Part shown: piece by piece, positions 39,874 to 55,965 of the stretch | Numbering within the stretch: position 1 is the stretch's first letter | How the letters are laid out: the number at the start of each line of letters is the position of its first letter | Assembly (NCBI RefSeq): GCF_003014485.1 | Contig: NZ_PYGA01000010.1 | Span: 124,001 to 188,000, forward strand | Direction: 5' to 3' | Source of the DNA: Murinocardiopsis flavida | GTDB lineage: Bacteria > Actinomycetota > Actinomycetes > Streptosporangiales > Streptosporangiaceae | Length of the DNA: 64,000 nt | Translations under genes and position numbers: made by a program | The notes under the pieces: generated by a model | Database searches by the model: none | What the model was told of the DNA's origin: nothing | What the model saw: the letters and a program-made list of their open reading frames with translations, nothing else

Positions 39874-39997
39874 TGAAAGAGCCATCCCTTGACAGGTATG
39901 GCTCCGGGGTTACACGTGTGCAGCAATCTGCCGTAGGGGCCGGGACGGCGCGGCGCCGCGGACGGCCCCCTTGCACGAGGGCCCACCGGTCCCACGC

Positions 39998-40116
39998 GCG
40001 CTGCCTCCCATCCGGACTTTCACCGTCGGTACCGGAATTCCACCGGTTCAACCGGCCGATGGATTCGGCCGGGTCGCGGACTGTCACCGCCGGTTCGGAC
40101 TTTCACCGACCCCGGA
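39998..40116 (-). promoter_or_regulatory. FMN riboswitch (RFN element)
   Basis: Reading the minus strand, conserved RFN blocks occur in order: GGTCGGTGAAAGTCCGA, CGGCGGTGACAGTCCGCGA, TTGAACCGGTGGAATTCCGG, and CGACGGTGAAAGTCCGGATG ending GGGAGGCAGCGCG. It lies about 125 bases upstream of ribE. A GGGGCCG/CGGCCCC stem at about 39945-39970 follows and could be the terminator of the expression platform. FMN binding should switch off ribE-ribM-ribBA-ribH. Confidence 0.97.
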
Positions 40117-40267
40117 GCACGCGTGCGTGTACTTCTACTCGAACAGTGTGCCACCCGCCCGTGTTCCCGATCAGAGCGGGGTATCCCGATCCGGACCGGC
40201 CAGGGCCGGGGCCGGATCCTCAGCTGCTCACTTACAGGGCCGGTCCGCCCGCGATCGAGGGAGCCCT

Positions 40268-47681: not shown

Positions 47682-48506
47682 ATGCGCCACTCCTCCCCCG
47701 AGTTCGCCGCGCTGGCGGAGAACGGGACGATCCTGCGCTGCCTGGTCGGCTCCACCGTGCACGGCACGGCGGTCGACGACCAGGGCGACCGCGACGAGAT
47801 GGGGATCTGCGTCGAGCCCAAGGAGTACGTGGTGGGGCTGCGCCGGTTCGACCAGTACATCCACCGCACCCGGCCCGACGGGGTCCGTTCCGGGCCCGGC
47901 GACCTCGACCTCACCGTCTACTCGCTGCGCAAGTGGATGCGGCTCGCCCTCGACGGCAACCCGACGGTGCTGCTGCCGCTGTTCGTGCCCGACTCCCAGG
48001 TCGTGCGCCGCACGCCCCTCGCCGACGAGCTGCGCGCGCAGGCGCACCGGTTCGCGACCCGCGCCGCTGGCCGGCGGTTCATCGGGTACCTGCGGTCGCA
48101 GCGCGAGAGCATGCTCGGGCTGCGCGGCGGGCGCAAGGCCAACCGGCCGGAGCTGATCGAGCGGTTCGGCTTCGATGTCAAGTTCGCCCACCACATGGTC
48201 CGGCTCGGGATCCGGGGCGTCGAGCTCATGGAGACCGGCCGCATCACCCTGCCCATGGCGGAGCCGTGGCGGTCCTGGCTGGTCGCGCTGCGCACGGGCG
48301 GGCACACCCGGGAGGAGGCGCTCGACGAGGCGCGCGCACTGGAGGACCGGCTGCTGGCCCTCGTGGCGGCCGTCGACCTGCCGGATGCGGCCGACCGCGA
48401 GTGGGCCGACCGCTGGCTGGTCGACGCCTACGAGCGGGTGTGGAGCGGCGGGGAACCCGGCGCGGGCGTCACTCCGCGACCGGCCGCGCGGGGTCCGGCC
48501 CGCTGA
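47682..48506 (+). CDS. RlaP-like nucleotidyltransferase (DNA polymerase beta superfamily)
   Basis: 274 residues. N-terminal motif CLVGSTVHGTAVDDQGDRDE (residues 20-39) has the GS and Asp-rich active-site pattern of the RNA-repair-pathway nucleotidyltransferase family, followed by DLDLTVYSLRKWMRLAL and KFAHHMVRLGIRGVELM. Other members occur with RNA ligases, but none is adjacent here. The start follows GAGAGGG. The 3' end overlaps the convergent DinB-like gene by 38 bases. Confidence 0.82.
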   Translation: MRHSSPEFAALAENGTILRCLVGSTVHGTAVDDQGDRDEMGICVEPKEYVVGLRRFDQYIHRTRPDGVRSGPGDLDLTVYSLRKWMRLALDGNPTVLLPLFVPDSQVVRRTPLADELRAQAHRFATRAAGRRFIGYLRSQRESMLGLRGGRKANRPELIERFGFDVKFAHHMVRLGIRGVELMETGRITLPMAEPWRSWLVALRTGGHTREEALDEARALEDRLLALVAAVDLPDAADREWADRWLVDAYERVWSGGEPGAGVTPRPAARGPAR

Positions 48507-49035
48507 GGCCCGCCCGGTACAGGTCGCGCAGCAGGGCGACCTCCGCGCCGTGGTGGATCAGCTCCCTGTTGATGTGCAGGGCGAGCATCGCGAAGGGGAA
48601 CTCGGCCCACTGCTCCGGCTCGGCGGCGCCCACGGGCGCGGCGAGCGCCTCGGGGCCCAGTTCGCGCACGCCCGCGCACCAGGCGCGGTAGGCGTCGCCC
48701 AGGCGGGTGAGGGCTTCGTCGGCGCTACCCGGCCACGACACGGTGTCGAGGCGCATGGACCGGTCGCCGAAGTGGTGGTCGACCCGCAGTTCGAGCACTC
48801 CCACGGCCATGTGGCCAAGCCGCCAGCCGATGGTGGTGACGGGCGGCGGCGACGGCTCCGGCCACGTCCAGTCGACGGTGTGGCCGCCGTCGCCGCGCGG
48901 CCGCACGGTCCAGCAGCCCTCGACCGGCTCCCAGTAGAACTCGCGGTCGCCGAGGCCGCGCAGCCGCGGCCACAGCGACACATCCCAGTAGAACTCCAAC
49001 TGCCCCAGCAGCTCATCGGTCCAGTTCAGCGCCAT
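48469..49035 (-). CDS. DinB-superfamily protein
   Basis: 188 residues, four-helix bundle expected. The DinB-like metal positions are suggested by GHMAVGVLELRVDHHFG (about 74-90) and the C-terminal INRELIHHGAEVALLRDLY. Family members include thiol-dependent S-transferases and hydrolases using bacillithiol or mycothiol; the actual reaction here is unknown. The gene lies 21 bases after the upstream methyltransferase gene on the same strand and overlaps the convergent RlaP-like gene. Confidence 0.85.
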   Translation of the reverse strand: MALNWTDELLGQLEFYWDVSLWPRLRGLGDREFYWEPVEGCWTVRPRGDGGHTVDWTWPEPSPPPVTTIGWRLGHMAVGVLELRVDHHFGDRSMRLDTVSWPGSADEALTRLGDAYRAWCAGVRELGPEALAAPVGAAEPEQWAEFPFAMLALHINRELIHHGAEVALLRDLYRAGLSGPDPARPVAE

Positions 49036-49056: not shown

Positions 49057-49686
49057 TCAGGCCCGGCCGGCGACACCGGCCAGCACCCCCACGCCGGAGC
49101 CGGTGACCTCGGCGTCGGGGTACGGCCACCATGCCATGTCGGCGAGGCCGGGATCGAGCACCGTGAACGGCGCGAACAGGCGCGTTGCGGCACGGGCGCC
49201 CGCGCCGTCGCCGGGAGCGGGGCGGCAGATGACGACGTGGCTGCCCGGCGCGGTCGCCGCGTGGGCGTCGCGCACCAGCGCCGCGACGGCGGTGTCGGTG
49301 AGGTCGCCGGTGTCGACCAGCAGCAGCGCGATGGGCGCGGCGGGGTCGAGCGCGCCGCTGCGCAGGACGGTGCCGAGCGGGCCGCCGGACAGGTGGACGG
49401 CCGACGCCTCCGGCCGGTGCTCGCGCGCCGCAGTGTGGACCGCCTCGGCGGTGGCCGGGCGGGCGCCGACGTTGACGAACTGGCGGACGCCGAGGTCGGC
49501 GGCGAGGTAGCCGACGACCCGGCGGACGAAGCCGCGCCGCGCGCGGGCCAGCGCGAGCGCCTCGGGCGGGGCCGCGCGGGGCCGCGGCGCGCGGGGCGGT
49601 GCCGCCCCGAACCGCAGGACGTGCGGGCCGCCGGTCTCGGGCGCGCCGACCGGCCGAGGGCCGCTGAGTTCCTGCTCCTCGGACAA
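49057..49686 (-). CDS. SAM-dependent methyltransferase, DUF574/PF04672-like, shortened
   Basis: 209 residues, shorter than the usual 265-280. The fingerprint RRGFVRRVVGYLAADLGVRQFVNVGA-type segment begins at about residue 51, which is the family hallmark (helix then SAM site region). The later acidic stretch VYVDNDP-type motif is not seen; instead ASAVHLSGGPLGTVL occupies that place. It may be a diverged or inactive member of this actinobacteria-specific family. Role unknown. Confidence 0.7.
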   Translation of the reverse strand: MSEEQELSGPRPVGAPETGGPHVLRFGAAPPRAPRPRAAPPEALALARARRGFVRRVVGYLAADLGVRQFVNVGARPATAEAVHTAAREHRPEASAVHLSGGPLGTVLRSGALDPAAPIALLLVDTGDLTDTAVAALVRDAHAATAPGSHVVICRPAPGDGAGARAATRLFAPFTVLDPGLADMAWWPYPDAEVTGSGVGVLAGVAGRA

Positions 49687-49755: not shown

Positions 49756-51105
49756 TCACTGCGGGTCGATGCTACCGCCCGTCGCGCGGCGCGGGTCGGG
49801 GACCGGGGCGATCCGGCCGTCTTCGAGCTCGTAGTCCCACCGGGGGCCGCGCTCGGCGAGTTCGGCGACCGCGGCGACGAGGCGGTCGACGTGCGCCGCC
49901 GTGGTGCCCAGTCCGAGGCTGGCCCGCACCGCCTGGGCGTGGCCCGGCGGCAGGAGTTCGCGGGTCAGCAGGTGCGCGCAGAACAGTCCGTCGCGCACCC
50001 CGATGCCGTACTCGGCGGACAGGGCCGCGGCGAGCAGGTCGGCGGCGATGCCGTCGACAACGAACGACACGATCCCCACACGCGGCCCGCCGGCGTCCCA
50101 CAGGCTCAGATCGTGGACGCCGGGGATCGCGGCGAGACCCGCGCGCAGCCGGTCCAGCAGCGCCTGCTCCTCGGCGTGCAGCAGCTCCTGGCCCGCCGCG
50201 CGGAGCGTGTCGCAGGCCGCGGCGAGGCCGACGGCGCCCAGGACGTTGGGGCTGCCGGCCTCGTGCCGGGCGGGCAGGTCGTTCCAGCGCACGTCGTCCT
50301 CTGTGACGGAGGCGGTGGCGCCGCCCCCGGCGAGGTAGGGCACCGCGGCGCGCAGCCAGTCGGTGCGCCCGGCGAGCACGCCCGCGCCGAACGGGGCGTA
50401 CAGCTTGTGCCCGGAGAAGGCGACGTAGTCGACGCCGCTGCGGCTCAGGCTGAACGCCTGGTGCGGCACCAGCTGGGCTGCGTCCACCACGATGCGCGCC
50501 CCCGCGGAGTGCGCGACGGCGGTGAGCTCGTCGACGGGCCAGATCTCCCCGGTGACGTTGGAGGCCGCGGTCACGCACAGCAGCCGCGGCCCCTCGGGGG
50601 CGTCGAGCAGCGCGGCCCGCGCGGCGGCCACGGCGTCCTCGGGCCCGGCGGGCAGCGGCAGCCGCACGACGCGGCCGGCCCGGGCGCCCCGGTGCTGCCA
50701 CGGCAGCAGCGCGGCGTGGTGCTCACCGGCGAACACGACAACGGTGCAGCCGTCGGGCACGGACCGGGCGAGCAGGTTCAGGGCGTCGGTGGTGCTGCGG
50801 ACGAACAGCACCGCGTCGTTGCCGCGCGCGCCCACGAACCGCGCCACCGAGCGGCGGGCCGCCTCGTAGGCGTCGGTGCTCACCTGCGAGTGGTAGCCCG
50901 CCCCGCGGTGGACGCTCGCGTAGTAGGGCAGCGCCTCCTCCAGCCGCCGCCGCACGGCGCCGAGGCAGGGCGCGCTCGCGGCGTAGTCGAAGTTGGCGTA
51001 CTCGACCTGCTCCCCGGTGACGAGCGGGATGCGGACGTCGGCACCGACGATGCCGACGTCGACGGCGGAGGGGGTGGCGGCGGGGTTCGCGGCGACAGTG
51101 GTCAC
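49756..51105 (-). CDS. Class V aminotransferase-fold PLP enzyme (cysteine desulfurase-like) under SAM-IV riboswitch
   Basis: 449 residues, fold type I. NFDYAASAPCLGAVRRRLEE (about 32-51) opens the domain; the PLP Lys is in VAFSGHKLYAPFG near 238; VVDAAQLVPHQ holds the cofactor Asp; FVRSTTDALNLLAR is the phosphate loop. It resembles NifS/SufS/EgtE-type C-S lyases, though the mobile-loop Cys is not evident. The GTG at 51105 has AGAGG eight bases upstream; a longer frame runs through the riboswitch. SAM-IV control implies a job in methionine or sulfur metabolism. Confidence 0.85.
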   Translation of the reverse strand: MTTVAANPAATPSAVDVGIVGADVRIPLVTGEQVEYANFDYAASAPCLGAVRRRLEEALPYYASVHRGAGYHSQVSTDAYEAARRSVARFVGARGNDAVLFVRSTTDALNLLARSVPDGCTVVVFAGEHHAALLPWQHRGARAGRVVRLPLPAGPEDAVAAARAALLDAPEGPRLLCVTAASNVTGEIWPVDELTAVAHSAGARIVVDAAQLVPHQAFSLSRSGVDYVAFSGHKLYAPFGAGVLAGRTDWLRAAVPYLAGGGATASVTEDDVRWNDLPARHEAGSPNVLGAVGLAAACDTLRAAGQELLHAEEQALLDRLRAGLAAIPGVHDLSLWDAGGPRVGIVSFVVDGIAADLLAAALSAEYGIGVRDGLFCAHLLTRELLPPGHAQAVRASLGLGTTAAHVDRLVAAVAELAERGPRWDYELEDGRIAPVPDPRRATGGSIDPQ

Positions 51106-51117
51106 AGTGCACCTCTC

Positions 51118-51140
51118 ATGGGTCTCGGGGGACCCCATGG
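51118..51140 (-). promoter_or_regulatory. Hairpin next to the aminotransferase ribosome site
   Basis: CATGGGTC (51118-51125) pairs with GGACCCCATG (51131-51140), with one bulge. On the minus strand it ends just before the AGAGG ribosome site. With the SAM-IV aptamer 30 bases further up, it may be part of the expression platform that hides or frees the start region. Confidence 0.4.
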
Positions 51141-51171
51141 GACGCACACGCAGTGCTGCCGTGGCCGGATA

Positions 51172-51304
51172 GGGTCCGCGCTTGCCTGACACGTAGCTGA
51201 TAGACGGTCGTGTCTCGACCTGGTCCTCACCCGGGGCACCCCACCGCGGAACAGAGGGTTGCCGGCCAGCAAGCCGGGGCTTCGCGCTGGCACTCATGAC
51301 CTGG
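51172..51304 (-). promoter_or_regulatory. SAM-IV riboswitch aptamer
   Basis: On the minus strand: GGTCATGAGTGCCAGCG, then AAGCCCCGGCTTGCTGGCCG followed by GCAACCCTC, then CCGCGGTGGGGTGCCCCGGG, GTGAGGACCAGG, and a pseudoknot-side tail GGCAAGCGCGGACCC. The order and core sequences match the SAM-IV class described from actinomycetes. The outer GGTC/GACC pairing closes P1. The only downstream gene is the class V aminotransferase. Confidence 0.9.
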
Positions 51305-51410
51305 GGACGACTGTAGCGCACTCGCCGACGCCGCTGCCGCCCGGCCCGCCTCCCGCGAACCGGTGGGCCGCGCTGGCCGGTGCCCGGCGGGGGTGCCTAG
51401 AGTCGCCCCT

Positions 51411-51471
51411 AGGGCGTTCTCCGCGGACCGTTCCTGGCTCGCGCCCGGACGCGGCCACGTGACACGCCCCG
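51411..51471. repeat. Possible decayed copy D of the palindromic repeat
   Basis: Read on the minus strand, GCGAGCCAGGAACGGTCCGC followed by GGAGAACGCCC matches copy B at about 21 of 31 positions, and CCTAGGGCG flanks it as in copy B. The other end (GACACGCCCC) resembles the AACACGCCC end of copy C. The similarity is moderate and judged by eye. It lies between the SAM-IV riboswitch and gcdH. Confidence 0.3.
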
Positions 51472-51523
51472 GTAGGTCCGCGGCAATCGCGCGACCGGCG
51501 ACCACTGCCACGGAAAGGACCCA

Positions 51524-54771: not shown

Positions 54772-55965
54772 TCAGGCGCCCACGGCCGCCTTGAGCGCGG
54801 CGGCGCGGTCGGTCTGCTCCCAGGTGAACTCGGGGATCTCGCGGCCGAAGTGGCCGAAGGCCGAGGTCAGCGAGTAGATGGGCCGCAGCAGGTCGAGGTC
54901 GCGGATGATCGCGGCCGGGCGCAGGTCGAAGACGTCCTGGACGGCCTTCTCGATGTTCTCCGGCGCGACGGCCTCGGTGCCGAAGGTCTCGATGAACACG
55001 CCCACCGGGTGCGCCTTGCCGATGGCGTAGGCCACCTGGACCTCGCAGCGGTCGGCGAGCCCGGCGGCCACGATGTTCTTGGCGACCCAGCGGGTGGCGT
55101 ACGCGGCGGAGCGGTCGACCTTGGACGGGTCCTTGCCGGAGAACGCGCCGCCGCCGTGGCGCGCGTACCCGCCGTAGGTGTCGACGATGATCTTGCGCCC
55201 GGTGAGCCCGGCGTCGCCCATGGGCCCGCCGATCTCGAAGCGGCCGGTGGGGTTGACCAGCAGCCGGTAGTTGTCGGACTCCAGGCCGTAGCTCGCCACC
55301 ACCGGGGCGATGACGTGCTCCTTGACATCGGGGGTCAGGAGTTCGAGCAGGTCGATGTCAGGCGCGTGCTGGCTGGAGACCACCACGGTGTCGAGGCGGA
55401 CCGGGGTGTTGTTCTCGTACTCGACCGTGACCTGGGTCTTGCCGTCGGGACGCAGGTAGGGGACGGTGCCGTCGCGGCGGACCTCGGAGAGACGCTGGGA
55501 GAGCGCGTGCGCCAGCTTGATCGGCAGCGGCATGAGCTCGGGGGTCTCGCGGTTGGCGTAGCCGAACATCAGGCCCTGGTCGCCGGCGCCCTGCCGGTCG
55601 AGGTCGTCGGTGCCGGCCTCGGCGCGGGTCTCGTAGGCGGTGTCGACACCCTGGGCGATGTCGGGCGACTGGGCGCCGATGGACACCGAGACTCCGCAGG
55701 ACCCGCCGTCGAATCCCTTCGCCGAGGAGTCGTAGCCGATCTCCAGGATCTTGGCGCGGATCAGGCTGGGGATGTCGACGTAGGTCTGGGTGGTGACCTC
55801 ACCGGCGACGTGCACCTGCCCGGTGGTGATCAGGGTCTCGACGGCGACCCTGCTCTTCGGGTCATCCTTGAGCATCGCGTCGAGTACGGCGTCACTGATC
55901 TGGTCGGCCATCTTGTCGGGGTGGCCTTCGGTGACCGACTCGGAGGTGAAAAGGCGACGGGACAC
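54772..55965 (-). CDS. metK: S-adenosylmethionine synthetase
   Basis: 397 residues. Makes SAM from methionine and ATP. Signatures: [20 protein letters not shown] at the N-terminus (catalytic His in GHPDK), [12 protein letters not shown] near 120 and the ATP loop [19 protein letters not shown] near 265. GTG start with AAGGAG eight bases upstream. No SAM riboswitch is visible in its 214-base leader, although a SAM-IV element serves another gene 4 kb away. Confidence 0.97.

Follow-up and report, generated by a model that had tools for sequence, protein, structure and literature searches.

What does a PLP enzyme do when its gene stands behind a riboswitch for SAM, and how might the riboswitch act on it? 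The locus that raises this question lies on the minus strand of a 64,000-nucleotide stretch of the genome of Murinocardiopsis flavida (contig NZ_PYGA01000010.1), which is called the window in the following and whose numbering is used throughout. An earlier note on this DNA had assigned positions 49756-51304 to a SAM-IV riboswitch and a class V PLP gene; the span and both classifications were correct.

The riboswitch and the gene behind it

A cmscan search of the whole window against Rfam matched SAM-IV (RF00634) with 96.8 bits and an E-value of 2e-16. The gathering score is 38, so the covariance-model check of the claimed SAM-IV identity ended far over its threshold. The match spans the full model (1-116) and is untruncated. 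The following features were located at this point:

51173..51301, minus strand: SAM-IV riboswitch aptamer (RF00634), from the Rfam cmscan of the whole window
51245..51249, minus strand: PK-2 strand CCGCG in the P3 loop, pairing seen in the sequence, PK-2 as in PMC6890682
51176..51180, minus strand: 3' strand of PK-2, CGCGG, its last two G common to the aptamer tail
49756..51105, minus strand: cysteine-desulfurase-like class V PLP enzyme linked to SAM-IV, 449 aa, starting with GTG, from Pfam, NCBIfam, alignment and structure matches
49057..49686, minus strand: ORF with a partial Methyltransf_19 match (Pfam, 47 bits)
48469..49035, minus strand: ORF with a DinB_2 match (Pfam, 54.4 bits)

PK-2, which according to the available text of PMC6890682 is a feature of SAM-IV, is present here between the P3 loop and the 3' end (CCGCG at 51249-51245 with CGCGG at 51180-51176). 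Compared with RF00634 the element has the full-length match, the conserved core strands and both PK-2 strands in common, while the insert in its P5 region is longer (14 versus 3 alignment positions); the rest is typical. The element belongs to the SAM-IV class, from which binding of SAM and an effect on expression are predicted. It is the only SAM-IV copy in the genome, as determined by a scan of the whole assembly (7.38 Mb, 75 contigs, 99.27% complete). The window also carries an FMN riboswitch at 39994-40124 on the minus strand (94.2 bits, cut-off 66.2) and, about 3.5 kb from SAM-IV, metK at 54772-55965 on the minus strand (563.3 bits, cut-off 309.4). No leader of its own was detected for metK in the Rfam scan of the window.

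The gene at 51105-49756 follows directly downstream of SAM-IV on the same strand. Its product scored 263.5 bits with Aminotran_5 (PF00266; cut-off 21.5) and carries an invariant lysine, Lys234, which bears out the class V aminotransferase fold claimed for it. It had also been described as the only gene downstream, which is wrong in view of the two further ORFs on the same strand listed above. Because strong stem-loops fold after the stop codon (-41.6 kcal/mol over 81 nt), a single-gene unit of riboswitch and gene is plausible. No sulfur acceptor was recognised among the ORFs adjoining the gene. A search for a conserved operon, in which ten reference loci were compared with 81 neighbourhoods, returned only this gene as recurring across genera; its neighbours recur only within one genus or family. 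A DinB_2 gene follows at a distance of about 1 kb or more in 6 of the 80 named loci listed, all of them from Nocardiopsis or Marinitenerispora.

Linkage of riboswitch and gene across actinobacteria

Linkage was followed in a same-family set of 37 genomes (G000-G036) that were present in both the riboswitch and the protein searches, positions being compared by hand. SAM-IV occurred in 23 of them, and in all 23 a relative of the gene lies directly behind it on the same strand (53-100% identity, some fragmented). The 14 genomes without SAM-IV were all without the gene as well, no listed match exceeding 42% identity. Among 150 genomes of the family 102 have SAM-IV, and the best-scoring 30 SAM-IV loci all encode a relative of the gene.

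Named genomes yielded at least 80 loci, from Nocardiopsis, Streptomyces, Amycolatopsis, Actinomadura, Lentzea, Kribbella and others. With a model built from 23 family members SAM-IV was found just upstream in 78 of the 80 named loci listed; in L092 and L093 neither this model nor that of Rfam detected one. A named relative, from Marinitenerispora sediminis, is 83% identical to the window's gene product. No SAM-IV was found at the more distant relatives L026, L028, L030 and L031. Taken together, the pair of riboswitch and gene is genuine and conserved. It is also already published. In the available text on S. clavuligerus, CRV15_21540, a PLP enzyme of the class V fold, is under SAM-IV (PMC8269248), and in that on S. 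lividans the same holds for SLIV_26975, annotated as a cysteine desulfurase (PMC8079986). The riboswitch class and the type of gene agree with those of the window, and judged by the named Streptomyces loci both genes are probably orthologous to the window's gene. Because the S. lividans gene already bears this annotation (PMC8079986, as far as its available text goes), the unknown reaction that the earlier note saw is no puzzle peculiar to this locus.

Among 20 regions around additional SAM-IV matches two more (L165, L166) precede the same gene. For nine of the other 18 the protein behind SAM-IV was classified by Pfam, giving GST-like, FAD-NAD(P)-binding, solute-binding (three), luciferase-like, CMD and LuxR-type proteins, and one without any Pfam match. 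Second SAM-IV copies were seen in other members of the family (L148, L149, L151, L155-L157, L160, L161 and L167, with L151 and L167 assigned by their resemblance to L148). The genes behind these copies are of the GST-like, FAD-NAD(P)-binding, solute-binding, luciferase-like and CMD-domain kinds, and together they resemble a regulon for sulfur acquisition.

Active site and family of the enzyme

Two codons mark the expected catalytic residues:

50404..50406, minus strand: codon of Lys234 (in SGHKLY), which should bind PLP and does not vary among the 24 relatives aligned
49978..49980, minus strand: codon of Cys376 (in VRDGLFCAH), which should be catalytic, does not vary among the 24 relatives aligned and lines up with the loop Cys of SufS

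Lys234, Cys376, Arg371, Arg394 and His130 were invariant in all 24 aligned relatives, which include one riboswitch-free member (L026). Judged by the alignments, the Arg, His and Lys positions probably equal the substrate and PLP contacts of SufS. In phmmer alignments the loop of Cys376 coincided with that of solved cysteine desulfurases, which reads VRxGHHCA or VRxGQHCA. The statement that no Cys is evident in the mobile loop thus has to be corrected: Cys376 is there, and it aligns to the loop Cys of the desulfurases.

The AlphaFold model of the protein has a mean pLDDT of 82.9 and is poor at residues 255-267 and 271-286. Its 50 best PDB matches were all type II cysteine desulfurases or selenocysteine lyase, with TM-scores of 0.70-0.73 normalised by the query and 29-35% identity; the cargo desulfurase of M. 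smegmatis (8kg1) came at the top, followed by SufS proteins. SufS is likewise the best NCBIfam model, yet the score of 264.8 bits stays below the TIGR01979 cut-off of 475.1, as do those of two other members (248.2 and 269.5 bits). SufS proper was rejected on this score. Also rejected were the family 2A encapsulin cargo desulfurase (247.6 bits, cut-off 800), the selenocysteine lyase SclA (131 bits, cut-off 525) and EgtE (58.9 bits, cut-off 400), and with the last of these the earlier suggestion of a hercynine-sulfoxide lyase falls away.

A tree of 35 proteins placed the SAM-IV-linked proteins and L028 in one clade of 25 (support 99/98) and the SufS and CsdA proteins in another (93/93). Comparison with enzymes of the SufS type (M. 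tuberculosis SufS and 8kg1 of M. smegmatis) shows the same fold, PLP lysine, loop Cys and arginines, whereas the window's clade is separate, its loop reads VRDGxFCAH instead of VRxGHHCA and its score is under the SufS cut-off. By these sequence comparisons the protein belongs to a distinct clade of type II cysteine-desulfurase-like enzymes, apart from the SufS of the genome's own suf operon. Because fold, PLP lysine, loop Cys and arginines are those of type II cysteine desulfurases, the sulfur role that had been predicted from SAM control gains support. The substrate could be one other than cysteine, because the SufS cut-off is missed and the HHCA of the E. coli-type loop reads FCAH. In one genome that has no SAM-IV, a different SufS-like gene (L031, G012:C96:87656-91741; 37-40% identity) was seen next to a PF01053 enzyme.

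A candidate expression platform

The earlier guess that a hairpin beside the ribosome site is the switch was followed in the leader between aptamer and gene, where four elements were recognised:

51169..51177, minus strand: aptamer tail GGACCCUAU, complementary to the anti-tail (9 pairs, -14.1 kcal/mol)
51130..51138, minus strand: anti-tail AUGGGGUCC, which also lies in the 5' arm of the Shine-Dalgarno hairpin
51107..51149, minus strand: extended hairpin enclosing the Shine-Dalgarno sequence (-20.8 kcal/mol)
51112..51117, minus strand: Shine-Dalgarno sequence GAGAGG, 6 nt before the start

From 116 sequences entered 108 leaders were obtained; L044, L071, L092, L093, L119, L122 and L140 had no pattern match, and L056 had no gene frame. 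The paired six bases start inside the last PK-2 strand (consensus GGACCC), and their partner after the aptamer was defined as the motif RGRYCC. Two leaders were excluded from the pairing count for want of a recognisable tail (L095, L116), which left 106. The motif was missing in five of these, namely L051, where the start was probably chosen too early, L079, which has a matching pair outside the pattern, L086, L130 and L131. Tail and motif were fully paired over six positions in 98 of the remaining 101 leaders. When the motif was swapped among leaders 2000 times, the count averaged 90.0 and never exceeded 95; this control is uncorrected for relatedness. An unrestricted pairing score of all 108 leaders had a mean of 9.68; regions that were shuffled gave 6.01 (maximum 6.53, 200 trials), and swapped tails gave 9.00 (maximum 9.24, 200 trials), with relatedness uncorrected in these controls as well. 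Matched changes of tail and motif occurred in separate lineages: GGACUCC with GGAGUCC in L079, GGGCCU with AGGCCC in L069, and GGAUCCC with GGGAUCC in L040, L050, L068 and L098.

Of 68 short leaders, 67 use the motif that pairs with the tail as the 5' arm of a hairpin as well, and in 62 of the 68 the hairpin comes within 3 nt of the Shine-Dalgarno sequence or enters it. Placement was scored on 68 of the 108 leaders and accessibility on 71, these being the short leaders with a recognisable Shine-Dalgarno sequence (and motif). Against dinucleotide shuffles the hairpin had a mean z of -1.25, with values below -1 in 34 of 68 short leaders. When the tail was held in PK-2 the predicted accessibility of the Shine-Dalgarno sequence hardly changed, with a mean of 0.262 as compared to 0.294 with the tail free, which speaks against the switch; it was lower in 23 and higher in 7 of the 71 leaders. 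The window's own leader had an accessibility of 0.25 in either state, and as a whole it was no more stable than its shuffles (z -0.27). Folding of this full leader, done without pseudoknots, did not reproduce the aptamer. The conserved complementarity and the position of the hairpin give support to the guess of a hairpin switch, the switching itself being a model. In this model the arrangement of tail, anti-tail and hairpin would be a natural OFF switch for translation. The SAM-IV aptamer changes little upon binding of SAM according to the available text of PMC6890682, and therefore switching would have to be co-transcriptional. In the available text of that paper on the aptamer structure the term expression platform is absent.

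Two Kribbella leaders (L086, L130) extend only 27 nt past the aptamer and have no GGGUCC motif; in them the Shine-Dalgarno sequence GGGAG may itself be the pairing partner of the tail, CUUCCC. Most Streptomyces leaders differ from that of the window in another way: they run for about 130-370 nt past the aptamer and contain a mini-ORF of six codons, while the window's leader has 78 nt and no mini-ORF. The mini-ORF (M-x-[KQ]-R-M-[RL]-stop) was present in 36 of 37 leaders longer than 110 nt, 28 times as MSKRMR, and the sole exception, L115, is an Actinomadura leader with a misjudged start. It sits between aptamer and gene (e.g. in L076, L085, L091, L095-L099 and other Streptomyces loci), is preceded by GAGGGAG or GAGGAG resembling a Shine-Dalgarno sequence, and occurs in nine different DNA forms that include synonymous changes of codon 6. 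A literature search for MSKRMR found no paper. The mini-ORF is possibly a leader peptide coupled to the riboswitch.

Proposed mechanism, role and alternative explanations

On balance we favor the view that high SAM, acting through SAM-IV, turns down a dedicated type II cysteine-desulfurase-like enzyme, and that this enzyme feeds the supply of methionine and SAM. With SAM bound, PK-2 would retain the 3' strand (GCGCGG) within the aptamer; GGGGUCC downstream would then be free to fold into a hairpin that covers the Shine-Dalgarno sequence or adjoins it, which would keep translation low. When SAM is absent, the 3' strand and the tail (GGACCC...) would pair with GGGGUCC, the hairpin would not form and the ribosome site would open. 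While the aptamer match, the linkage and the alternative pairings are computed results, as are the desulfurase fold and its residues, we infer the OFF direction and the translational level of control. The enzyme would take sulfur off cysteine via a persulfide at Cys376, and the reduced sulfur would be passed on towards methionine and SAM; here we infer both cysteine as the substrate and the metabolic destination. That SAM should turn off a cysteine desulfurase is consistent with a demand for reduced sulfur at low methionine. Points against this reading are the nearly constant predicted accessibility, the ordinary stability of the leader, the uncorrected relatedness in the swaps, the S. clavuligerus data discussed below, the missed SufS cut-off with the deviating FCAH loop, the lack of a genomic partner in the presence-absence comparisons and the absence of a recognisable sulfur acceptor among the adjoining ORFs. 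A precedent is M. avium, where SAM-IV precedes an O-acetylhomoserine sulfhydrylase according to the available text of PMC3774663. There as here the same sensor stands over a gene of sulfur-amino-acid metabolism, but the enzyme differs, and the window's genome has no MetY above cut-off.

A less probable explanation is that the riboswitch works by transcription attenuation, intrinsic or Rho-dependent, and that the hairpin at the Shine-Dalgarno sequence is a terminator or incidental. In S. clavuligerus the reads fall strongly from a premature transcript to the class V coding region, which points to premature termination over, or besides, translation control (PMC8269248, available text), and the elements in Table 3 of the S. 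lividans study were judged by read profiles of 5'-UTRs (PMC8079986, available text). Because most Streptomyces leaders are longer and differently built, however, they may not represent the window. Moreover, no terminator-like site with a U run was found within 51060-51520 of the window, and a terminator would not need the placement at the Shine-Dalgarno sequence that 62 of 68 short leaders have. With regard to the enzyme it appears improbable that it is a second housekeeping SufS for Fe-S clusters, whose control by SAM mirrors the demand of SAM-using Fe-S enzymes. It is true that SufS is the best NCBIfam model and that SufS structures match best after the mycobacterial cargo desulfurase. Yet the genome has its true SufS at a separate locus (L168; TIGR01979 580.7 bits, cut-off 475.1), beside ORFs that by their sequences appear to be SufC-like and SufU-like; the SAM-IV-linked proteins with L028 are a clade of their own, and no neighbour gene recurs across genera.

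We also consider it unlikely that the enzyme, instead of being a desulfurase, cleaves cystathionine as a C-S lyase and so stands in for MetC. SAM control would fit such a lyase, because it catalyses a direct step to homocysteine, and the inventory of the genome is compatible with it: cystathionine gamma-synthase is present (NF005871; 663.5 bits, cut-off 513), MetY is absent above cut-off, MetZ stays below its cut-off (363.2 versus 510) and the PatB-type match is weak (142.5 versus 340). In addition, eight family genomes lack both MetY and a strong PatB match (E ≤1e-70), and seven of these have the gene (G000, G001, G005, G015, G020, G022 and G036). This pattern is weak, however. The gene is also found in 16 of the 29 other family genomes, G006 is without the gene, MetY and a strong PatB, and strong PatB matches occur in 16 of 23 genomes with the gene and in 12 of 14 without it, so that PatB (TIGR04350, same E-value limit) is not convincing as a genomic partner. 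MetY (TIGR01326) showed no link either, being present in 7 of the 23 same-family genomes that have the gene and in 4 of the 14 that do not. MetZ-type proteins (TIGR01325) are above cut-off in 2 of 60 genomes, and cystathionine gamma-synthase, found in 55 of the 60 including all 37 family members, is uninformative as a partner. Most genomes, that of the window included, hold several PF01053 matches that could do the cystathionine step (eight in G000). Finally, the invariant loop Cys is expected of a desulfurase, while beta-elimination does not need one.

Significance

For the published pair of riboswitch and gene this analysis corrects the active site of the enzyme, sets the enzyme apart from SufS, shows how far the linkage reaches and proposes a specific model of the platform. 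It is a tentative and rather doubtful step further to see here an actinobacterial desulfurase subfamily that serves methionine and SAM and not Fe-S clusters, a sulfur-mobilising step of the methionine pathway that has gone unrecognised, and a SAM-IV platform in which the PK-2 strand is itself the arm that competes with the Shine-Dalgarno hairpin. The conserved tail, anti-tail and hairpin offer a concrete, testable expression platform for SAM-IV, the aptamer of which is already solved. For the enzyme, to which databases give the generic name class V aminotransferase or cysteine desulfurase, the riboswitch is a physiological handle. Because the pairing of riboswitch and gene is near universal among the relatives examined and extends over several actinobacterial families, antibiotic producers among them, a single knockout or assay would assign the function across many genomes.
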